Assembly: GCA_021782545.1 (NCBI GenBank)
Contig: JAJXUW010000007.1
Coordinates: forward strand, 1 to 39,911
Reading direction: 5' to 3'
DNA from: Deltaproteobacteria bacterium
GTDB taxonomy: Bacteria > Desulfobacterota > Desulfuromonadia > Geobacterales > Pseudopelobacteraceae
Length of the DNA stretch: 39,911 bases
Numbering within the stretch: the stretch's first letter is position 1; every line of letters starts with the position of its first letter. Positions 7,792 through 25,466 of this stretch are shown piece after piece. The notes below the pieces were generated by a model, which was not told the DNA's origin, did not search any database, and was given only the letters and a program-made list of their open reading frames with translations. The position numbers were made by a program, and so were the translations under genes.

Positions 7792-7845
7792 CAACCACGG
7801 CTGCCCGCCTGCCCTGCCGACTGCAGGAGTATACCTGATTAGTGG

Positions 7846-7887
7846 CAAAAAGCAAAAGCACCCAGCGCAGACCGGGTGCTTTTGCTT
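7846..7887 (-). terminator. Intrinsic terminator after tRNA-His
   Basis: AAGCAAAAGCACCC (7850-7863) pairs perfectly over 14 bp with GGGTGCTTTTGCTT (7874-7887) around a 10-base loop. Read leftward the distal arm runs into GCTTTTTGCC, giving a T-rich end. It closes the tRNA-Ala/tRNA-His unit. Confidence 0.8.
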
Positions 7888-7895
7888 GTACTAAA

Positions 7896-7973
7896 TGGGG
7901 TGGCCAGAGGGATTCGAACCCTCGAATGCATGAGTCACAGTCATGTGTGTTCGGCCGCTTCACCATGGCCACC
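7896..7973 (-). tRNA. tRNA-His (anticodon GTG)
   Basis: Read on the minus strand, acceptor GTGGCCA pairs with TGGCCAC, the anticodon arm CATGA/TCATG holds the loop CTGTGAC with GTG, and the T arm GAGGG-TTCGAAT-CCCTC is intact. An extra 5' G pairs with discriminator C, as expected for tRNA-His, and the CCA end is encoded. Second gene of a two-tRNA unit with tRNA-Ala. Confidence 0.96.
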
Positions 7974-7988
7974 GCAAGCCGTATGTCA

Positions 7989-8010
7989 AAAGCCGGCTTG
8001 CGCCGGCTTT
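7989..8010 (-). other. Hairpin between tRNA-Ala and tRNA-His
   Basis: AAAGCCGGC (7989-7997) pairs with GCCGGCTTT (8002-8010) over a 4-base loop. Only a short T run follows in the transcribed direction, so it is more likely a processing spacer than a full terminator. Confidence 0.5.
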
Positions 8011-8017
8011 GCATATA

Positions 8018-8093
<76 letters not shown>

Positions 8094-8144
8094 ACAAACA
8101 ACCTATTGCGTTTCCCACACCTTGCAAGCCGCTGTGGTCTTGAA

Positions 8145-8173
8145 TGTATACTATAGCTGGCGTTATCGGTCAA
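8145..8173 (-). promoter_or_regulatory. Sigma-70 promoter of the tRNA-Ala/tRNA-His unit
   Basis: On the minus strand TTGACC (8173-8168) and TATACA (8150-8145) are exactly 17 bases apart, about 50 bases ahead of tRNA-Ala. Close to consensus and correctly placed. Confidence 0.75.
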
Positions 8174-15970: not shown

Positions 15971-17311
15971 TTAGGCCGAGGTATCCTCTACCCGGCACAG
16001 CGCCCCACCCTTGGCCAGCCGTAGCCGCAGACGCTGTCCCACGCTGAGCTGAGCGGCATCCCGCAGCACCGCTCCATCCTCAACGGACTCGACCACGCTG
16101 TAGCCGCGGGCCAGCGTCTGCAGGGGCGACAGAGTATCCAGCCGGACGGTGGCCTCGCCCTGTTCCCTGGCCAAACGATCAACGAACGCGGTTACCCTGC
16201 GCTCAGCCCGTTCAGACAACAGTAGCAGCTGGTGCCGCAGGGTACTTATACGGATCGAGGGATGCTGGGCTGCCAGCTGCCGCTCCAGCCGTGCCAACTG
16301 TTCCCGACGACGGGCCAGCAGATTACGCAGACCGTTATCCAGACGTTCGGCAAGATCGTCCACCCGCTGTCCCAGATGCCCCAAAAGCAACGTCGGGTCG
16401 TGCAACGCCCGGTGCAGACCTTCCACCCGTCGGCGCTGCATGGCCACCAACCCCTGCATGGCCTGACGTAAACCATGCTGTAAACCATCAAGCCGCTGCA
16501 GCAGTTCCTCACGGCTGGCGCAGACCAGTTCGGCTGCCGCCGACGGCGTGGGTGCCCGCAGGTCGGCGGCAAAATCGCAGATGGTCCAGTCGGTTTCATG
16601 ACCCACCGCCGAGATAACCGGTATCCGTGAGCGCCGCACCGCCCTGGCCACCACCTCTTCGTTGAAGGCCCACAGATCCTCCAACGAGCCGCCACCCCTC
16701 CCCACGATCAGGACGTCGGCCGCCTGCAGACGATTGAGGTCATCAATGGCCTGAGCCACCTCGGCACCGGCCCCCTCCCCCTGCACCCGCACCGGATAAA
16801 GCAGCAGATCCAGGGCGGCGAATCGTCTGCCGAGCACATTCAGGATATCGTGGATCACCGCGCCGGTTGCGGAGGTAACCACGGCGATCCGCCGTGGCAA
16901 GACCGGCAACGGACGTTTACGGGCCTCATCAAACAGCCCCTCGGCGGCCAGACGTTCTTTCAGCTGCATGAAGGCCAGCTGCAGGGCGCCGGCCCCCTTT
17001 GGTTCCAGATATTCGCAGATCAGCTGATACTCGCCGCGCTGGTCGTAAACCGATATCCGGCCACGCACCACCAGTGCCATACCTTCCAGAAGCCGGAATC
17101 TAAGGGCCTTGGCGCTGCTGCGGAACATCACGCAGCGCAGCATGGCCCCGCTATCCTTCAAGGTAAAGTACAGATGTCCCGAGGCCGGCTGCGAGAGATT
17201 CGACAGCTCGCCCTCCAGCCAGACCTGGTTGAAGTTTTCCTCCAGCAGCCCTTTAAGCAGCGCGGTCAGGCGTGAGACGCTGAAGATGGTCCGTTCACCG
17301 AAGAGATCCAT
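15971..17311 (-). CDS. xseA: Exodeoxyribonuclease VII large subunit
   Basis: XseA and XseB together degrade single-stranded DNA to oligonucleotides. The 446-residue protein has the N-terminal OB fold (WLEGELSNLSQPASGHLYFTLKD in two runs, residues 31-53), the catalytic-domain motifs VVTSATGAVIHDI (144-156), GRGGGSLEDLWAFN (204-217) and GHETDWTICDFAADLRAPTP (237-256), and a long coiled-coil region to about 400. The start at 17311 is weakly served by AGGGTGG. The usual small-subunit gene xseB does not follow; the neighbour downstream is the convergent mtaB. Intact by length. Confidence 0.96.
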   Translation of the reverse strand: MDLFGERTIFSVSRLTALLKGLLEENFNQVWLEGELSNLSQPASGHLYFTLKDSGAMLRCVMFRSSAKALRFRLLEGMALVVRGRISVYDQRGEYQLICEYLEPKGAGALQLAFMQLKERLAAEGLFDEARKRPLPVLPRRIAVVTSATGAVIHDILNVLGRRFAALDLLLYPVRVQGEGAGAEVAQAIDDLNRLQAADVLIVGRGGGSLEDLWAFNEEVVARAVRRSRIPVISAVGHETDWTICDFAADLRAPTPSAAAELVCASREELLQRLDGLQHGLRQAMQGLVAMQRRRVEGLHRALHDPTLLLGHLGQRVDDLAERLDNGLRNLLARRREQLARLERQLAAQHPSIRISTLRHQLLLLSERAERRVTAFVDRLAREQGEATVRLDTLSPLQTLARGYSVVESVEDGAVLRDAAQLSVGQRLRLRLAKGGALCRVEDTSA

Positions 17312-17340
17312 GACACCACCCTAACACAGCAGCGGATCAC

Positions 17341-17381
17341 GGTCAAACCAGGTTGACCACGACGACGCTTTTGCCTATCAT
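17341..17381. promoter_or_regulatory. Divergent promoter region between xseA and the ParA-like gene; leaderless start for the latter
   Basis: GGTCAA (17341-17346) and TTGACC (17353-17358) form a perfect inverted repeat with a 6-base spacer and can serve as back-to-back -35 boxes. Rightward, TTGACC is followed after 17 bases by TATCAT (17376-17381), which would place the transcript start within about 2 bases of the ATG at 17390. Leftward, the other TTGACC has a poorer TAGGGT at 17 bases. Confidence 0.65.
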
Positions 17382-17389
17382 GCGACGCT

Positions 17390-18781
17390 ATGAACTGCTT
17401 TCCTTATATCCTGACGATTTCATCGGAAAAAGGGGGGGTCGGTAAGACCACCCTGGCAACCAACCTGGCCATCTACCTGAAGGCGATGGTGCCCGACCTC
17501 CCGGTCACCCTCATGTCCTTTGACAACCACTTCACCGTGGACAAGATGTTCGAGCTGAAGGGTCAGCCCAGCAACGGGACGGTCTACGAACTGCTTCAGG
17601 GCACGCAGGCCGCGCAGCTGGTGCTCCAGGGGCAATACGGCGTGCAGTACCTCCCCTCCTCCGACCACCTGGCCGAACTGTATCAGAACTTCAAGGGGCC
17701 GATGGTGCTGTGCCGGATGATGGCCGAATCAGGCCTTTCAGGGATTGTGGTGATTGATACCCGGCCCGATCTGAACATCCTGACCCAGAACGCCCTATAT
17801 GCCGCCGACCGCGTGCTGATTCCGGTAAAAGACATGCCCAGCCTGGAAAACTGCAAGCATATCTTCGCCCTGTTTGATCAGCGGGGTATCGACAAGAAAT
17901 CCCTGTCGCTCATCCCCTGCCTGATCGACAACCGGATCAAGTTCGACGGTCTGTTCAAGGATCAACGCACCCTATTGAAGGCATTTGCCATCAACCGCGG
18001 CTACCGCTGCCTGGAGACCTACATCTCCAAGAGCCCCAAGGTTGAAAGCCTGAACACCAACCCCGACGGTAAGATCTATCCGATCTTGAACCATGCCCGC
18101 GAGACCGAGGTGCATAACCAGTTTACCGAGCTGTCCCAGGATATCCTGACCAGCTACCATGAGACGGCCGAGCCGCGCTCGTTCCTGTACCAGCGCTGGC
18201 TATGCGAACAGGAGGAGCAAAAAAAAGCGGCCTTTCTGGCACGGCTGGAAGGCATCCCGGCACACTGCATCATCTGCGGCAGGGCACTGGACGGGCCGGC
18301 CGGCAAAGGGTTCTTCTACGAATCGGCCGATCGGACAACTCGGGGGTTTCTGCACAGCGACTGTTTTGTGGGGATGCTCTGCAGCACCCTGTGCAGCAAC
18401 GTGTCGGCTGGCAGCGAGATGCATACGCTCTCGCAGCAGGTTGTGCGGGAAAATGCACGGGAGTCGGTGGCGGTGTTCCTGCCGAGGCGTGACGAACGGG
18501 GTGATTACCAGGTACGCTTTCTGCAGTTAGATCTTGGAGGGACGCCGCTTCTGGAGCGAACTATTGCACTGACCGGCTTTTTGGAGGGGTTGTTTGACGG
18601 GGTGCACGACCAGCTGTATCTGCTCTTGAATGAGTCACTGACCGGTTATGACGGGAGGTTGCGCAACAGTTGGCTGGCAGTGCATCCGGTGGATGAGGAG
18701 CGCCCCGAGCAGGTGCTGCAGGAGCAACGCTACCGCCAGGTGCAGGAGCTGCACCGGCGGGTCGCGCAACTCGTGGCCTAA
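17390..18781 (+). CDS. ParA/MinD-type ATPase with a Cys/His-containing C-terminal extension
   Basis: Residues 1-250 form a ParA-like P-loop ATPase. The deviant Walker A EKGGVGKTT (Lys14 signature lysine, Lys19 catalytic) is followed by a Walker A'-like VIDTRPDLN with Asp123. Most ParA/MinD proteins end near 260 residues; this one reaches 463. The extension has CIIC (Cys293, Cys296) and HSDC (His322, Cys325), spaced like a treble-clef or ribbon zinc site, then a region rich in beta-strand-like residues and a charged C-terminal helix. No Shine-Dalgarno precedes the ATG and the promoter suggests leaderless mRNA. No parB, minD partner or flagellar gene is adjacent. The cargo is unknown. The stop overlaps the convergent deacetylase stop. 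Confidence 0.85.
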   Translation: MNCFPYILTISSEKGGVGKTTLATNLAIYLKAMVPDLPVTLMSFDNHFTVDKMFELKGQPSNGTVYELLQGTQAAQLVLQGQYGVQYLPSSDHLAELYQNFKGPMVLCRMMAESGLSGIVVIDTRPDLNILTQNALYAADRVLIPVKDMPSLENCKHIFALFDQRGIDKKSLSLIPCLIDNRIKFDGLFKDQRTLLKAFAINRGYRCLETYISKSPKVESLNTNPDGKIYPILNHARETEVHNQFTELSQDILTSYHETAEPRSFLYQRWLCEQEEQKKAAFLARLEGIPAHCIICGRALDGPAGKGFFYESADRTTRGFLHSDCFVGMLCSTLCSNVSAGSEMHTLSQQVVRENARESVAVFLPRRDERGDYQVRFLQLDLGGTPLLERTIALTGFLEGLFDGVHDQLYLLLNESLTGYDGRLRNSWLAVHPVDEERPEQVLQEQRYRQVQELHRRVAQLVA

Positions 18782-19788
18782 CGGACCAATTTTGAGACAA
18801 CCACCAGCGTCACCCCCTGCTGGCTCAAGCCTGGCAACACCTTGGCAAGGGTGGCAAGGGTGGTTGGATGGGGATGGCAGATGGCAATCGCCCTACCGTT
18901 CTTCCTGGCCTTAGCCACAGCTATGTTCAACTGACCACGGATGTAACCTTCATTTTGTTCATTATCCAAAAAGACATCACGACGGGCGCTTTTCATATGC
19001 AATGCCGCCGCAACCCGGGGGCCGGTCGTTGCCGGCGTGGTGACGCTGTCTATGAAAAAAAGCCCTTTCTGCTTTAACAGGGTAAGCACTCGACGCATCT
19101 GCGCTTCATCCTCGGTAAAGGCCGATCCCATATGGTTATTGGCCCCCACTGCCTGGGGCACCCGATCTACATAACTATTCACCAACGTCTGTAACTGCTG
19201 TTCATCATAGCTTAACAACAGGCCGTTAGACTCCATCCGCCGTTGCGGATATTCCTTGGACTGCATCGGGATATGCAACATCACCTCTGCACCGTGGCCA
19301 GCGGCAAAGGCGGCCACTTCGCCATCGTGACGCAGCCCCGGTATCACCGAGACGGTCAGTGGCACCCCGATCGCCATCAGGCTGCGCACCTCCTGCAGGG
19401 AACTCCCCATGTCGTCCACAATGATGGCAAGCTCGGCCCGACCGCCCGTCCGCGACACCGGCACAGCCGTTGGCAACGCATCATGCCCCTTGTGCGCCTC
19501 CTCACCATTACCACCGCCAACCACCGCCGGAGGGGTAACCATCGGTGCGGGTACCGATGCCAAGGCAGATGAGCGGCGGGGCTGTGCCGGGGCGGCGGGT
19601 ACCACAGGACGGGCCAGCTGCTGCAACCGGACGACCGGTGCCGGTTTCTGCTGCCAGGCCAGAAAATAGTAGCCGCCGAGGAGCAACAGCAGGATCAGGG
19701 CAATGAAAACGGCAAGGGCGGTTGCACCCTTGCCGTTCTGCTTCTTGTAGCGATTCGAGCGGGTTTGACGAGGCTTCTGCTTCGTCAT
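18778..19788 (-). CDS. Divergent polysaccharide deacetylase family protein (YibQ-like)
   Basis: A 336-residue membrane-anchored protein: basic N-terminus, one membrane helix (about 22-46, ALAVFIALILLLLLGGYYFL), a Pro/Ala-rich periplasmic linker to about 115, then the Polysacc_deac_2 domain. Visible motifs are AIIVDDMGSS, VSVIPGLRH, MLHIPMQS, NHMGSAFTED and the closing AIAICHPHP. The paired DD and the histidines resemble the metal site of NodB-like enzymes, but activity in this divergent branch is unproven. YibQ genes often accompany envC, as here. The start is 3 bases after the ctpA stop, and its 3' end overlaps the ParA-like gene tail to tail. Confidence 0.88.
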   Translation of the reverse strand: MTKQKPRQTRSNRYKKQNGKGATALAVFIALILLLLLGGYYFLAWQQKPAPVVRLQQLARPVVPAAPAQPRRSSALASVPAPMVTPPAVVGGGNGEEAHKGHDALPTAVPVSRTGGRAELAIIVDDMGSSLQEVRSLMAIGVPLTVSVIPGLRHDGEVAAFAAGHGAEVMLHIPMQSKEYPQRRMESNGLLLSYDEQQLQTLVNSYVDRVPQAVGANNHMGSAFTEDEAQMRRVLTLLKQKGLFFIDSVTTPATTGPRVAAALHMKSARRDVFLDNEQNEGYIRGQLNIAVAKARKNGRAIAICHPHPTTLATLAKVLPGLSQQGVTLVVVSKLVR

Positions 19789-19791
19789 CGC

Positions 19792-21141
19792 CTACTTGCC
19801 CTGGCCATAGGTCTTGAGAATTTCCCACCCTTTCAGCAGATCGACAGCCCGCATCAACTGATAATCAGACTTGAGGAAGTCGGCAGACTGTTTCTCGGCC
19901 TTTTCAGACTTAAGCTCCAGGGCATGGTCCTGCTTGCTGCCCTTGTCATCCCCTACAAAATGGTTCTCAAGATCCTTTTCGCGGACTGACAGGATATCGC
20001 GCTTCACCGAATCCTTGGGCAGTTCAATCTGCTCCACCACAATGTCCGGCGTGATTCCCTTGGCCTGAATGGAACGCCCCAGCGGCGTGTAGTAACGCGC
20101 AGTGGTGAGACGCAGGCCCGATTCATCGGCCAGCGGGATGATGGTCTGGACCGAGCCCTTGCCAAAGCTCTGGATGCCCATCACCAGGGCGCGTTTATGA
20201 TCCTGCAGGGCACCGGCCACAATCTCGGAGGCGCTGGCACTGCCGGCATTGATTAACACCACGATCGGATAACCTGGTTCCTTGTGACGGTTGCTGGCGT
20301 TGAACTGCATGCGGGATTCCTTGTCCCGCCCGGCGGTATAGACAATCAGCTTGCCGTTCGCTATGAAATGGTCCGCCACCCGCACCGCCTGTTCAAGCAG
20401 CCCACCGGGATCGTTACGCAAATCAATAACCAGACCGGCCAGAGGCTTACCCTTGTTCTCTTCGCCTAGGGTTTTTAGTGCCTTGGAAACGTCATCATCC
20501 GTCCGTTCCTGGAACTGGGCGATCCGTATATACCCGTAGCCCCCGTCCAGCAGCCGGAATTTAACGCTTTTCACCTGCACGATGTCGCGCATCAGGGTGA
20601 ACTCTTTAGGACGATCGAATCCCTCGCGCATGATGGTCAGGACAACCTTGGTCCCCTTGGGCCCTCGCATCCGCTTGACCGCGTCGGTAATGGAGAGATC
20701 CTTGGTAAACCGGTCATCAATCTTGATGATCTGGTCGCCGGCCTTGATGCCGGCCCGCTGGGCCGGTGTGCCCTCGATAGGCGAAATGACCGTCAGAATG
20801 CCGTCCTTGACGCTGATCTCAATGCCCAGGCCGCCAAAGGCGCCTTTAGTATCGATCTTCATCTCCTTGAAGGTTTCCGGGGTCATGAAGGAACTGTGCG
20901 GGTCCAAGGCCGCCATCATGCCGTTTATGGCACCATAGATCAGCTTCTTGGAATCAACTTCTTCGACATAGTTCTTCTTCACAATGGCCATCACATCGGT
21001 TAGAAGGCCTATGTATTCATAGTCCTTATCGCCTTCGGCGTTGCAACGACGTTGAGTGCTGATGCCGATAAAAGCGATCAGTAGAACCGCCACCACCAAA
21101 AATCCGAGTGCCACCTTTTTAGTTCTGCCAGGTTTCAGCAT
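19792..21141 (-). CDS. ctpA: C-terminal processing protease CtpA (S41 family, PDZ domain)
   Basis: A 449-residue periplasmic serine protease with an N-terminal membrane anchor (about 10-28). The PDZ domain runs from about 98 to 185 (GAFGGLGIEIS, GIKAGDQIIKIDD). The S41 core has DLRNDPGGLL, then GSASASEIVAGAL with catalytic Ser303 and SFGKGSVQ with Lys328, and Gln332 four residues later as in other family members. In related bacteria such proteases trim or degrade periplasmic peptidoglycan hydrolases, which suits its place after envC. The start at 21141 has GGAGGA 10 bases upstream. The 82-base gap to envC may hold a promoter (TTTCTT, 17 bases, TATAAC). Confidence 0.95.
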   Translation of the reverse strand: MLKPGRTKKVALGFLVVAVLLIAFIGISTQRRCNAEGDKDYEYIGLLTDVMAIVKKNYVEEVDSKKLIYGAINGMMAALDPHSSFMTPETFKEMKIDTKGAFGGLGIEISVKDGILTVISPIEGTPAQRAGIKAGDQIIKIDDRFTKDLSITDAVKRMRGPKGTKVVLTIMREGFDRPKEFTLMRDIVQVKSVKFRLLDGGYGYIRIAQFQERTDDDVSKALKTLGEENKGKPLAGLVIDLRNDPGGLLEQAVRVADHFIANGKLIVYTAGRDKESRMQFNASNRHKEPGYPIVVLINAGSASASEIVAGALQDHKRALVMGIQSFGKGSVQTIIPLADESGLRLTTARYYTPLGRSIQAKGITPDIVVEQIELPKDSVKRDILSVREKDLENHFVGDDKGSKQDHALELKSEKAEKQSADFLKSDYQLMRAVDLLKGWEILKTYGQGK

Positions 21142-21223
21142 TCGCGTTTATTCCTCCGGTTTATCGTACACAACGATAGTTATACTACTACGCTTTCTAT
21201 CAAGAAACGAGAATTTTTTGGGT

Positions 21224-22414
21224 TCATCGGCGGATCCAGCCTGCCGGATCCTGGGGTTTGCCCTGATAACGGATCTCAAAATACAGTACCGGCCCCCGGG
21301 TGGAGTCGACATCACCGACAGCACCCAGGGTGTCGCCGCGTTTCACCTCGCTGCCGACCCTACGGGTAAGGCGTGAGGCATGGGCATATAGCGAGAAATA
21401 GCCGCCGCCATGATCGACGATGACCATATTGCCGTACCCCTTGAAGTAATCGGCAAAGATGACGGTACCGTCATAGATCGCCTTGATGTCACTGCCGGCC
21501 GGGGCGGCGATAAAAATACCCTTATTGAAGGTGTAGGAGTTGAAATCAGGGTGTTTGTGCTTGCCGAAGCCTTCGACTATCTCCCCCCGGACCGGCATCG
21601 GCAACCGTCCCTTTTGTGTAGCAAAACCGCGATCAGGCACCGGCGGCAACTCGGGTTGCGACCTGCGGGCAATGCCGGGTTTTACCTTTCTGCGAAGGGC
21701 CCGCCGACGGCTCTCGGCTTCAAGCCGGTTGATCATGCTCTGCAACCGGACGGCGTTGGCCTGCAGCACCTTAATGGACTGTTCGTATGACTTGCGATCC
21801 CCCTGAACCTTGGAGAGATAGCTGGCCTTCTTCTGCTTCTCCTGTTCAACCTCCCGTTTTTTGGAGGCGATGTTGTCCTTGAGGTGCTCCTTGCGACCGG
21901 CATCCTGTTCAAGCCGGAGCTTCAGCTGACGCAACTCGGCAAGTTTCTGGTTGTATTCGGCAAATATCCGCTTGTCGTGTTCCAGCACCGCCCGCATATA
22001 CCGGATGTTTTCAGCCATTTGCGGAAAACTCTCGGCGGAGAAGAACATCCGCATCGCGCCCAGTTCCCCACCCTTGTAAAGCGAGCCCAGACGCTGCTCA
22101 ATCTGGCGCTGTTTGATCTGCGTCTCGTTGGTGACCCGCACTACCTCCTGTTCGGTCTGGGAAATAGAGCCTTCAACCGTTGCCAGATCGCGATCCAACT
22201 GTTGCAGTTCCGATTCCTTGCTGGCAATGTTTTTAAGAATTCCCTGCAGTTCCTGGGAGACAGCCGCCTCGACCTTTTTTGTTTTTTTGAGCAGGGTCTG
22301 TTTTGCCCGGATCTCTTGGCGGACGCCTCGCAGTTCATCGTGCGGGGAACTGGCCAACACCAGGCCAACCGGCACTGCGAAGATGCTTGCTATAACGATC
22401 AAGACACGCAGCAT
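21224..22414 (-). CDS. envC: EnvC-like murein hydrolase activator (coiled coil plus degenerate LytM domain)
   Basis: A 396-residue periplasmic protein: signal peptide (MLRVLIVIASIFAVPVGLVL), coiled coil from about 25 to 215 rich in Lys/Glu/Gln, and a C-terminal M23/LytM domain from about 275. The zinc ligands of active M23 peptidases are mostly lost: the H-x3-D position reads NKGIF, and the HxH position reads VLY in GPVLYFEI; only the His of LYAHAS remains. This is the EnvC pattern, a non-catalytic activator of cell-wall amidases. The gene begins 5 bases after the ftsX stop with no good ribosome site, suggesting coupling. FtsX is the expected membrane partner. Confidence 0.93.
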   Translation of the reverse strand: MLRVLIVIASIFAVPVGLVLASSPHDELRGVRQEIRAKQTLLKKTKKVEAAVSQELQGILKNIASKESELQQLDRDLATVEGSISQTEQEVVRVTNETQIKQRQIEQRLGSLYKGGELGAMRMFFSAESFPQMAENIRYMRAVLEHDKRIFAEYNQKLAELRQLKLRLEQDAGRKEHLKDNIASKKREVEQEKQKKASYLSKVQGDRKSYEQSIKVLQANAVRLQSMINRLEAESRRRALRRKVKPGIARRSQPELPPVPDRGFATQKGRLPMPVRGEIVEGFGKHKHPDFNSYTFNKGIFIAAPAGSDIKAIYDGTVIFADYFKGYGNMVIVDHGGGYFSLYAHASRLTRRVGSEVKRGDTLGAVGDVDSTRGPVLYFEIRYQGKPQDPAGWIRR

Positions 22415-22419
22415 ACGGT

Positions 22420-23370
22420 CTAGGTATCTGCCATGAAACGGCGCAACGAGGTGAGACTCCCGAGAAAACCGAGCAGCGCTCCAGCCAGAACCAGCCCCAG
22501 CATAAACTCGGCTGGCAGGAAGGCCAAACCGCTGGAGGCCGGATTAAAGCTCAAAAAATTACCGGCATTGTGCAAAAACAGCTGGTAGATGGCGAGCAGC
22601 AGCAGCAGCGACAACAGCCCTCCTGCCAGCCCCTGCAGGACACCCTCGATCAAAAACGGCATCTTGATAAACAGCCGGGTAGCGCCCACCAATGCCATCA
22701 CCTCTAGTTCGTCACGACGGGCATAGATGGTAAGCCGAATGGTGTTGGAAACGATAAAGACCACCGCAACCAGCAGAAACCCCCCGACCAGGGCGCCCAC
22801 CAACCGCATAAAAGTCAGGAAGGTATTGAAACGGCGTACCCATTCCTCGCCGTACTGGACTTCGCCGATGCCGGGCACCGTCTTCAACCGACTGACATAG
22901 GCCTCCACCGCCTCACTGCTGCGGCTTTGCTTCTTCAGTGCTATCTCGAAGGAGGTTGGCAGCACATCGGAACTCACCCCTTCGAGCAGGGTTTCCTGCC
23001 CCTTAAGCCGCCCTTTAAAGCGCTTAAGCGCCTCATCGTGGCCCACCCAGGTCACATTGGCGGTGCCAGGCAGGGCCTGGATGCGATTTTTCAGATCGGT
23101 CTGCTCTTTAGGGGTGAGATCCCGGTCAAAATAGACGGTCACCTGTACCCGTTCACTCCACGAATCGGCCGCGTTTTCAAGGTTGACAACCAGGAGCAGG
23201 AACAGAGCGACGATCAGGAGGGCCAGGGTAATGGTCCCGACGGTGACCGCATTGACAACCATGTTCTGGCGGAGGTTAGACACGGCACGGCCGAAAAAAT
23301 AACGCAGGCACCCGCCAGCCCCTTGGTGGGACATGGTGGGACGTTTTGCCTTGTTACGCGGCGTTTTCAT
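22420..23370 (-). CDS. ftsX: Cell division protein FtsX
   Basis: The membrane subunit of the FtsEX complex, which recruits and switches EnvC at the septum. The 316-residue protein has a cytoplasmic N-terminus, a first membrane helix (about 43-66, VGTITLALLIVALFLLLVV), an extracytoplasmic domain (VQVTVYFDRDLTPKEQ onward) and three further helices in the C-terminal half, the last ending LGFLGSLTSLRRF. I chose the ATG at 23370, 7 bases after GAGGAGG, overlapping ftsE by 17 bases; a GTG-like earlier start at 23403 lacks support. Confidence 0.94.
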   Translation of the reverse strand: MKTPRNKAKRPTMSHQGAGGCLRYFFGRAVSNLRQNMVVNAVTVGTITLALLIVALFLLLVVNLENAADSWSERVQVTVYFDRDLTPKEQTDLKNRIQALPGTANVTWVGHDEALKRFKGRLKGQETLLEGVSSDVLPTSFEIALKKQSRSSEAVEAYVSRLKTVPGIGEVQYGEEWVRRFNTFLTFMRLVGALVGGFLLVAVVFIVSNTIRLTIYARRDELEVMALVGATRLFIKMPFLIEGVLQGLAGGLLSLLLLLAIYQLFLHNAGNFLSFNPASSGLAFLPAEFMLGLVLAGALLGFLGSLTSLRRFMADT

Positions 23371-24037
23371 TACCCGCCTCCTCAGCACCAGCCAGCTGCC
23401 CACCCTGCAGGCGGATTATCCGATAATGGGACTGTTCGATCAAACGGCGGTCATGGGTGGCCACGACGACCGTGGTCCCCTTGACATTGGCCTCCTTGAA
23501 GATGTTCATGATCTGCTGCTTGTTGGCATCATCAAGATTGCCGGTGGGTTCATCGGCCAGCAAGATCTTGGGGCTGTTGACCAAGGCCCTGGCCAGCGCC
23601 ACCCGCTGTTGTTCACCGCCGGACAGCCGCTGGGGAGTCAGGTGTATCTTGGACTCCATCCCCATCTGACGCAGGATATGCATGACCCGCTTGCCGATAT
23701 CCGCCCCATCCCACCCCAACACCTCCAGGGTGATGGCCACATTCTCAAAAACAGTATGGTTCGGCAGCAGCTTGAAATCCTGGAACACCACGCCGATGGA
23801 GCGCCGCAGAAACGGCAGCTGCGAACGGGTTAACCGGCTGATGTTCTGACCGTCGATCAGTACCTGCCCTCGGGTAGGGAACAGTGCCCCGTAGACAAGC
23901 CGCAACAGTGTAGTCTTGCCGGCGCCTGACGGCCCGGTCAGAAAGACAAATTCACCCTTTGCGACCTTGCAGGAGATATTCTGCAACGCCGTAGCGTCCT
24001 TTTGATAGTCAAGCGAAACGGAATGAAACTGAATCAT
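23354..24037 (-). CDS. ftsE: Cell division ATP-binding protein FtsE
   Basis: The cytoplasmic ABC ATPase partner of FtsX. The 227 residues hold Walker A GPSGAGKT (35-42), the Q loop FQDFKLLP (85-92, typical of FtsE), the signature LSGGEQQR (138-145), Walker B ILLADEP (158-164) and the H-loop region VVATHDRRL. The length is normal. The ATG at 24037 has no strong ribosome site. First gene of ftsE-ftsX-envC-ctpA-deacetylase. Confidence 0.97.
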   Translation of the reverse strand: MIQFHSVSLDYQKDATALQNISCKVAKGEFVFLTGPSGAGKTTLLRLVYGALFPTRGQVLIDGQNISRLTRSQLPFLRRSIGVVFQDFKLLPNHTVFENVAITLEVLGWDGADIGKRVMHILRQMGMESKIHLTPQRLSGGEQQRVALARALVNSPKILLADEPTGNLDDANKQQIMNIFKEANVKGTTVVVATHDRRLIEQSHYRIIRLQGGQLAGAEEAGNENAA

Positions 24038-24341: not shown

Positions 24342-25073
24342 TCAGCGCCCCCTGCCCAGGAAACGGTGCAGCAGGCTGCCCAGCTTCAGTTTCCAGACCA
24401 TCACCACCGCCTCACGGACGATCCGCTTCGACATCTTCGATTGCCCGGCACGACGATCAATAAAGATAATCGGCACCTCACAGATATTGGCGCCGAGTTC
24501 GGCACAGCGGAAGTGCATCTCTATCTGGAAGGAATAGCCGTCAGAACGGATACCGTCCAGGTTTATCCGCTCCAGCAGGCTGCGCCGAAAACACTTGAAG
24601 CCACTGGTGCAGTCCATGATCTTCAGGCCGGTAACCAGGCGGGTATACACATTGGCGCCATAGCTGAGCATAAGGCGGCGCAGGGGCCAGTTGACCACAC
24701 TGATGCCGTTGGTATACCGCGATCCGATCACCAGGTCACACGTGGCAATCTTCTCAAGAAAAACCGGCAGGACGTTCGGATCATGGGAAAAATCGGCATC
24801 CATTTCTATCAGATAGTCCGCACCCAACTCCAATGCCCTGCGAAACCCTTCGCGATAGGCGGAACCCAACCCAAGCTTGGCTGGGCGATGCAGTACCTGA
24901 ATGCGGTTGTTTTCCTGTGATAAGGTGTCAGCCAGCTGACCGGTCCCATCAGGTGAGTTGTCATCGACGATCAGGATGCGCAGCGCATCATGCTGATTTA
25001 AGATGCGGCTGGTGAGGGACCGGAGGTTATCCAGCTCATTATAGGTGGGTATGACAACGTAGGCTGTGTCCAT
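24342..25073 (-). CDS. Polyprenol-phosphate mannosyl/glycosyltransferase (GT2, DPM1-like)
   Basis: A 243-residue GT2 enzyme of the dolichol-phosphate mannose synthase type, moving a sugar from a nucleotide donor to polyprenyl phosphate at the inner membrane. Motifs seen: VVIPTYNELDNL at the start, DDNSPDGT (37-44), EMDADFSHDP (the DxD metal site), GSRYTNG, and the acceptor-side GYSFQIEMHFRC and RRAGQSKMS. It has no C-terminal membrane helices, as in the short DPM1 form. The ATG at 25073 is preferred; an in-frame GTG at 25097 abuts the tRNA terminator and has no ribosome site. Sugar identity is not readable. Confidence 0.9.
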   Translation of the reverse strand: MDTAYVVIPTYNELDNLRSLTSRILNQHDALRILIVDDNSPDGTGQLADTLSQENNRIQVLHRPAKLGLGSAYREGFRRALELGADYLIEMDADFSHDPNVLPVFLEKIATCDLVIGSRYTNGISVVNWPLRRLMLSYGANVYTRLVTGLKIMDCTSGFKCFRRSLLERINLDGIRSDGYSFQIEMHFRCAELGANICEVPIIFIDRRAGQSKMSKRIVREAVVMVWKLKLGSLLHRFLGRGR

Positions 25074-25104
25074 CACGCTCACAATTTGGACAACCACTCG
25101 GACG

Positions 25105-25135
25105 AAAAAAGAGGGCGCCCGACGAACGCCCTCTT
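25105..25135 (-). terminator. Intrinsic terminator after the distal tRNA-Asp
   Basis: AAGAGGGCG (25109-25117) pairs with CGCCCTCTT (25127-25135) over a 9-base loop, and leftward the stem ends in a T run (A run 25105-25110). It separates the tRNA cluster from the glycosyltransferase gene. Confidence 0.88.
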
Positions 25136-25144
25136 GGTTACTTA

Positions 25145-25221
25145 TGGCGGGGTTGACGGGGCTCGAACCCGCGACCTCCGGCGTGACAGGCCGGCACTCT
25201 AACCAACTGAGCTACAACCCC
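25145..25221 (-). tRNA. tRNA-Asp (anticodon GTC), copy 1
   Basis: Minus-strand acceptor GGGGTTG/CAACCCC, anticodon loop CTGTCAC with GTC, T arm GCGGG-TTCGAGC-CCCGT, CCA encoded; 77 bases. It differs from copy 2 by one base in the D arm (CAGTTGG here, CAGCTGG there). Confidence 0.96.
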
Positions 25222-25261
25222 TCGCTGCTGCTTACTAATACTGCTGTTTTTGGCAGTGATA

Positions 25262-25289
25262 AAAAGGGAAAAGCAGCCTTTTCCCTTTT
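25262..25289 (-). terminator. Strong hairpin between tRNA-Val and tRNA-Asp copy 1
   Basis: AAAAGGGAAAAG (25262-25273) pairs perfectly with CTTTTCCCTTTT (25278-25289) over a 4-base loop; leftward it ends in a T-rich tail. It looks like an intrinsic terminator although a tRNA follows, so partial readthrough or processing is possible. Confidence 0.65.
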
Positions 25290-25296
25290 CCTTAAT

Positions 25297-25372
25297 TGGT
25301 GGGTGAAGAGGGGATCGAACCCCCGACATCCAGCTTGTAAGGCTGGCGCTCTCCCAGCTGAGCTATTCACCC
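25297..25372 (-). tRNA. tRNA-Val (anticodon TAC)
   Basis: Acceptor GGGTGAA/TTCACCC, anticodon arm CCAGC/GCTGG with loop CTTACAA (TAC), T arm GGGGG-TTCGATC-CCCTC, CCA encoded; 76 bases on the minus strand. Confidence 0.96.
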
Positions 25373-25389
25373 GTTTACTGCTATTAATA

Positions 25390-25466
25390 TGGCGGGGTTG
25401 ACGGGGCTCGAACCCGCGACCTCCGGCGTGACAGGCCGGCACTCTAACCAGCTGAGCTACAACCCC
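25390..25466 (-). tRNA. tRNA-Asp (anticodon GTC), copy 2
   Basis: Same structure as copy 1, 77 bases, with a single C/T difference in the D arm. It lies 42 bases after the hup stop and is probably cotranscribed with hup; no separate promoter is evident. Confidence 0.96.

Follow-up and report, generated by a model that had tools for sequence, protein, structure and literature searches.

ParA/MinD (deviant Walker) ATPases are defined by the motif KGGxxK[S/T] and its signature lysine (PMC9178275). Within this group, R189 and R218 of Soj serve non-specific DNA binding (PMC3778016; PMC9178275), and BcsQ is devoid of the signature lysine, the corresponding stretch reading RGGVGTT (PMC9178275). The gene considered here lies at positions 17390 to 18781 of a 39,911-nucleotide stretch of DNA (the window) from a Deltaproteobacteria bacterium of the Geobacterales (contig JAJXUW010000007.1), and encodes a 463-residue protein composed of a ParA-type ATPase and a C-terminal extension. 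With Soj/ParA (Thermus, Helicobacter, and Bacillus Soj), this protein shares the P-loop fold, the KGGVGKT signature lysine, the Walker B aspartate, and, as far as alignment goes, basic residues at the positions of R189 (aligned) and R218 (by hand), but it adds a C-terminal domain of 206 residues and has no adjoining ParB, a separate parA-parB pair being present in the genome. In contrast to BcsQ, it has the signature lysine and there are no bcs genes here, although the two are alike in having no ParB partner. The cargo-positioning ATPases McdA, FlhG/FleN, MinD, and MipZ offer a plausible analogy of use. None of these, to our knowledge, carries this extension, and no carboxysome, MinE, FlhF, or ParB partner is found beside the window gene.

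The ATPase domain and its C-terminal extension

A first-pass annotation, made from the DNA letters alone, had described a complete deviant-Walker ATPase of about 250 residues followed by about 210 extra residues with CIIC and HSDC. The coordinates and length of this open reading frame (ORF) were confirmed, and so was its division in two: Pfam, Protein Data Bank (PDB) sequences, and the modeled fold support a ParA/Soj-type ATPase at residues 1 to 257, and the remaining 206 residues (258 to 463) contain both motifs. The ATPase part matches AAA_31 (3.6e-16) and CbiA in Pfam, both above cut-off, as well as phrog_164, “ParA-like partition protein,” in PHROGs (1.1e-26), whereas PADLOC gave no match for the protein. 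Its best PDB sequence match is Thermus Soj (3.5e-11), and by this comparison Soj/ParA ranks above FleN or BcsQ. A full-length AlphaFold2 model has a mean predicted local distance difference test score (pLDDT) of 84.5. The modeled ATPase superimposes on Soj/ParA structures with Z scores of 24 to 26 and a root mean square deviation of 2.5 to 3.0 over about 230 to 240 residues. The predicted model thus has the Soj/MinD fold (Z of 21 to 26 over 220 to 250 residues), which McdA, FlhG, FleN, and MinD share at Z of 20 to 24.

Across 76 relatives, the key residues of the nucleotide motifs are all but invariant. The Walker A stretch reads SSEKGGVGKTT (residues 11 to 21), and KGGVGKT, which conforms to the ParA/MinD definition, occurs in 75 of the 75 sequences with letters there; D45 of motif A' and D123 of Walker B are likewise found in 75/75 each. 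The segment DTRPD had been taken for Walker A'. Alignment with VDCPPS of the ParA encoded in the same genome shows instead that it is Walker B and that motif A' is DNHFTVD. In Soj/ParA the two motifs read DPQ and D.PP, whereas the window protein has DNHFTVD and DTRP. The basic residues with which Soj binds the nucleoid appear to be retained as R182 (74/76), which aligns with Soj R189, and K217 (76/76), placed by hand opposite R218. The mean frequency of the commonest residue is 0.72 in the ATPase domain and 0.46 in the extension.

For the extension, no family was found in Pfam, NCBIfam, PADLOC, or PHROGs, no relative in a PDB sequence profile search (best E of 0.19), and no match in plasmid and phage collections. 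When 18 extensions were searched against Pfam with E allowed up to 10, only weak scattered matches came back, the best being zf-BED (0.019, one member) and DUF7445 (0.062, four members), and the window's own extension matched no zinc-finger family at that threshold. Modeled alone (AlphaFold2, residues 261 to 463, 18-row alignment), the extension reached a pLDDT of 92.8 and a predicted template modeling score of 0.87. Foldseek against the PDB and viral model libraries returned nothing at E of 0.001, and structural re-alignment (VIA) gave a best Z of 3.6; its rows are noise at low Z and include a weak GAF-like group (Z of 2.3 to 2.8). The possibility, raised in the first-pass annotation, that the extension might match a well-described domain was thus not borne out by family hidden Markov models (HMMs), PDB sequence, or fold search; a missing fold match does not prove a new fold.

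In the extension model, the CIIC knuckle is followed by a beta hairpin (strands 306 to 312 and 318 to 322) and by a helix (323 to 334) with C325 at its start. This knuckle-hairpin-helix order, with a putative ligand where the last helix begins, fits that of a treble clef; the resemblance is taken from the order of secondary structure in the predicted model, the PDB fold search having given no clear match to a solved treble clef. The window protein differs from treble-clef domains in having E, H, D, or N at the fourth position, no sequence family match, and a larger distal domain after these elements.

Of the four-ligand Cys/His zinc site that had been proposed for CIIC and HSDC, three putative ligands are conserved: C293, C296, and C325 are present in 76 of 76 relatives. 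The fourth position, 322, is E in 35 of these, H in 25, D in 14, and N in 2; it is restricted to possible metal ligands rather than varying freely, but it is not a histidine in most orthologues. The arrangement as a whole goes beyond chance, because the gene is present in 45 of 45 complete genomes of the order, because 76/76 relatives keep the cysteines in a domain of 0.46 mean conservation, and because only 0.6% of shuffled extensions show C..C-x(18-45)-[HEDN]..C. Of the other positions in the extension, only L443 (1.0), G384 (0.99), and G319 and R285 (0.97) are conspicuously conserved. These residues fit a putative Cys3 plus His/Asp/Glu metal site, and the Cys/His label should better be read as Cys3 plus an acidic-or-His position.

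Distribution and the three states of the slot

Close relatives of the protein are found in Geobacter, Oryzomonas, Geomonas, Geomesophilobacter, and Desulfuromonadales metagenome-assembled genomes, which points to Desulfuromonadia as the class concerned. The gene is near-universal and usually single-copy in its class. A query with the whole protein found matches in 133 of 146 class genomes and nothing in 13; the 133 comprise 122 in which the extension is present, 10 with the bare ATPase, and one with a paralogue only, the ATPase being present in 132 of the 146. Within the order, the extension occurs in 54 of 57 genomes, the window's own included, and in all 45 good (complete) ones. Outside the class it is found in 2 of about 191 genomes of the phylum, both from one family. 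A survey of the fusion and its neighbors, which the first-pass annotation had suggested, shows both to be conserved (122/146 class genomes, with xseA and a polysaccharide deacetylase gene as conserved neighbors). Where the flanks read are long enough, most loci show the order ftsE-ftsX-envC-ctpA-deacetylase, then the ATPase gene on the opposite strand, then xseA ... dxs, and this order from ftsE to dxs is kept across many families. These neighbors were absent from the earlier account. The fusion is real and conserved, and apparently unstudied.

The slot between xseA and the deacetylase gene is not always filled by the full-length gene. In ten genomes of four families (f7, f9, f23, and genus g32 of f6) it contains an ATPase that ends soon past the ATPase domain and has no cysteines of the extension, and in six genomes examined (f10, f5/g24, f17, and one g44 genome) it is empty, the deacetylase gene being followed directly by xseA. 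A quick tree built on the ATPase domain has the extension throughout a paralogous subfamily and in both members of the out-of-class pair; its ten extension-less rows require, by parsimony, no fewer than three changes, with starred branches forcing only one. For these reasons the extension looks ancestral and appears to have been lost at least once and probably several times, the ATPase meanwhile seemingly being kept under constraint. The out-of-class pair falls outside the main clade of the class on this tree, which may reflect deep divergence or transfer; in these two genomes (L024; L083 and L084) a diverged full-length fusion stands in unrelated contexts. In genus g5 the fusion occurs in a second full-length copy, which is not near xseA or the deacetylase gene (L090:7442-8848, L091:6723-8111, and L092:294-1709).

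Candidate function and competing explanations

The reading that we favor, giving it slightly less than an even chance, is that of an orphan, nucleoid-riding ATPase with a ParA-type ATP/DNA cycle, in which the extension is a module that binds a partner. Such a cycle is inferred because R182 and K217 appear to match the two basic positions of Soj. ATP would drive formation of a sandwich dimer via the signature lysine K14, and the dimer would bind nucleoid DNA non-specifically through R182 and K217, in the manner of Soj. A single metal ion on C293, C296, C325, and the His, Glu, or Asp at 322 would hold the C-terminal domain together, and this domain would bind the partner or cargo, taking the place of a ParB-like activator or recruiting one. 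The protein could in this way position, or report to, a cellular structure, and extension-less lineages would combine the bare ATPase with a partner acting in trans. The first-pass annotation had proposed a positioning ATPase with a built-in cargo or nucleic-acid adaptor; of this, a ParA-type ATPase with its nucleotide motifs, the Soj basic positions as far as alignment goes, the lack of a cognate ParB, and a conserved extension are supported, and the mechanism is plausible, but neither a four-ligand zinc site with the histidine nor the Walker A' label is supported.

Several observations weigh against the nucleoid-riding cycle with a partner-binding extension. The ten genomes that keep the ATPase alone, in the same slot and in four families, argue against the extension being indispensable, and for this reason it cannot be the sole cargo adaptor. 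MAFFT shifts the placement of the K217 loop by three residues, and model confidence is low at residues 216 to 225. At the loci of relatives no ParB was seen adjoining the ATPase gene (parS was not searched), and the papers searched describe no biochemistry, localization, or phenotype for this protein. A partner is not evidently encoded beside the gene. The fusion gene was also not found in the main text of a transposon sequencing paper on G. sulfurreducens.

Three more specific roles were considered and rejected. A type I partition ParA with an adjacent ParB does not agree with the loci of the window and its relatives, and the canonical parA-parB pair elsewhere in the genome (C57) means that the protein is not the segregation ATPase. 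The earlier remark that no ParB, MinE, or flagellar partner is nearby proved correct for the called ORFs of the window, MinE not having been searched by HMM. For a flagellar role, flagella do not co-vary with the gene, which many genomes without FlhA possess (e.g., G037, G040, G057, G065, G066, and G071). As for a replacement of MinC, MinC is above cut-off in only 5 of 146 class genomes, and these few show no clean exclusion; no MinC was found in the window's own genome assembly, which is 84% complete.

Next in rank, and rather unlikely, is a switch of the FleN/BcsQ kind, whereby an ATP-dependent dimer would control one partner (a transcription factor, an enzyme, or a membrane complex) without a nucleoid gradient or positioning. 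FleN and BcsQ, which are partner-control ATPases of the ParA family, are also among the fold matches, at Z of 20 to 24, BcsQ is the second-best NCBIfam match (1e-9, far below cut-off), and a dedicated partner would fit a fixed C-terminal domain without ParB. Nevertheless, the sequence is nearer to Soj/ParA, and the Soj-type DNA-binding basic positions are apparently kept. The gene order conserved across many families and the rarity of MinC in the class would also suit a regulator of the division site or of septal peptidoglycan, acting with FtsEX-EnvC and the deacetylase/CtpA in bacteria mostly without MinC. This we consider improbable: the ATPase gene runs on the opposite strand and has a promoter-like site of its own, relatives occur away from the cluster (the f2 family and the g5 paralogues), and the cluster is intact around an empty slot in several class genomes. 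It is not favored because most of the slot-empty genomes are without MinC too.

The cysteines themselves allow two other explanations. Three invariant cysteines with a His, Glu, or Asp position could ligate a [4Fe-4S] cluster, and the P-loop class includes Mrp, so that a metal or iron-sulfur carrier of the Mrp/Nbp35 type holding a labile cluster was considered. The NUBPL model PF10609 scores 25.4 bits, however, below its cut-off of 27.1, the NCBIfam models for MrpORP and ApbC are far below theirs, the cysteines are in a separate domain outside the P-loop domain, and the extension can go while the ATPase persists; such a carrier is very unlikely. Least probable of all is the C2HC zinc finger binding nucleic acid that the first-pass annotation implied. 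It draws on the HSDC spacing in the window and close relatives and on the histidine at 322 in 25 of 76 sequences, but a C2HC finger does not fit a position that is E or D in 49 of the 76 and lacks histidine in most orthologues, nor does the window's extension match a zinc-finger family.

Locus, second subfamily, and meaning for the class

The features of the gene and its surroundings are listed in Table 1. The promoter-like layout TTGAC[CG]-N17/18-TAnn[AT]T-N6-8-ATG recurs in 38 distinct sequences, counting the window, and since it puts the −10 element 6 to 8 nt before the ATG, the mRNA of the ATPase gene is predicted to be leaderless. The start of xseA has the mirror layout in the window (TTGACC-N17-TAGGGT-N6-ATG) and six near relatives, where a leaderless xseA mRNA is likewise predicted. 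The putative compact divergent promoter in the window (17309 to 17392) has both −10 elements 6 to 8 nt from the respective start codons. Elsewhere in the window, the ORFs at 7842 to 8156 and 25066 to 25401 overlie opposite-strand tRNA genes (His, Ala and Asp, Val, respectively), a kind of ORF often mis-annotated as a protein.

Table 1. Coordinates of the ATPase gene, its motifs, and its neighbors in the window
Feature	Position	Strand	Remarks
ParA-type ATPase with C-terminal domain, 463-residue ORF	17390..18781	+	Orthologues found
Deviant Walker A, E13-KGGVGKTT-21, signature lysine K14	17426..17452	+	K14 to T21 in 75/75 sequences with letters there; AAA_31
Motif A' region DNHFTVD, residues 45-51	17522..17542	+	D45, N46, H47, D51 invariant; alignment with own-genome ParA
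Walker B segment DTRPD, residues 123-127	17756..17770	+	Aligned with VDCPPS of own-genome ParA
R182, position of B. subtilis Soj R189	17933..17935	+	R in 74/76
K214-SP-K217, K217 opposite Soj R218	18029..18040	+	K214 74/76, K217 76/76; hand alignment ETVVPRNIRL / ETYISKSPKV
Connecting helix, residues 263-287	18176..18250	+	AlphaFold2 models
CIIC knuckle, residues 293-296	18266..18277	+	C293, C296 each 76/76
HSDC, residues 322-325	18353..18364	+	C325 invariant; 322 is E/H/D/N; helix start after beta hairpin, treble-clef-like order
Distal part, residues 343-462, helix-strand-strand-strand-helix-strand-helix	18416..18775	+	No confident structural match
xseA, exonuclease VII large subunit, divergent neighbor	15971..17311	-	PF02601 3e-108; adjacency conserved
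Divergent polysaccharide deacetylase (PF04748), convergent neighbor	18778..19788	-	Conserved neighbor
ctpA-like S41 protease, EnvC-like M23 protein, ftsX, ftsE	19792..24037	-	Neighbor cluster
Promoter-like TTGACC-N17-TATCAT	17353..17381	+	−10 ends 8 nt before ATG; same layout in relatives
Inverted repeat GGTCAA-N6-TTGACC	17341..17358	.	Back-to-back −35 elements of xseA and ATPase gene

A diverged paralogue of about 420 to 437 residues, with a CxxC...HxxC region, occurs outside the Geobacterales. Its neighbors form a conserved cluster (L094:1914-14539, and also L093, L095-L097, and L122-L124): on one side RNase E/G, which is divergent, and an ABC-F ATPase of the Uup/EttA-like kind, and past the paralogue a PATAN-like DUF4388 protein, a membrane protein with multiple predicted helices, nadC, birA, and coaX. 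The genome of the window has DUF4388 and membrane-protein pairs at L147:7129-8981 and L148:1559-3441, with no match to the paralogue in either of the two stretches read; the pair is possibly a two-gene membrane module. This context hints at a membrane or signaling partner for the paralogue, and it indicates no partner gene for the window's protein. Compensation of a lost extension by the paralogue was considered as well, since a second match is present in 9 of the 10 genomes concerned, but one is also present in about 31 of the 49 other genomes from outside the Geobacterales, which makes the association weak. A 338-residue ORF in the locus of the paralogue was set aside as an apparent antisense frame.

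The Geobacter group serves as a model of extracellular electron transfer, and no described function was found for this gene, which nearly all genomes of the class retain. Its ATPase type implies spatial organization or partner switching, and the rarity of MinC across the class bears on how the division site is placed. There is a small chance that the protein is a class-wide organizer, a nucleoid-riding ParA with a metal-stabilized cargo adaptor of undescribed fold that would position a core structure, such as the division or septal cell-wall machinery, in mostly MinC-less bacteria, the adaptor being supplied by another protein where it was lost. The three natural states of the slot, full length, ATPase only, and empty, make the role of the C-terminal domain directly testable.
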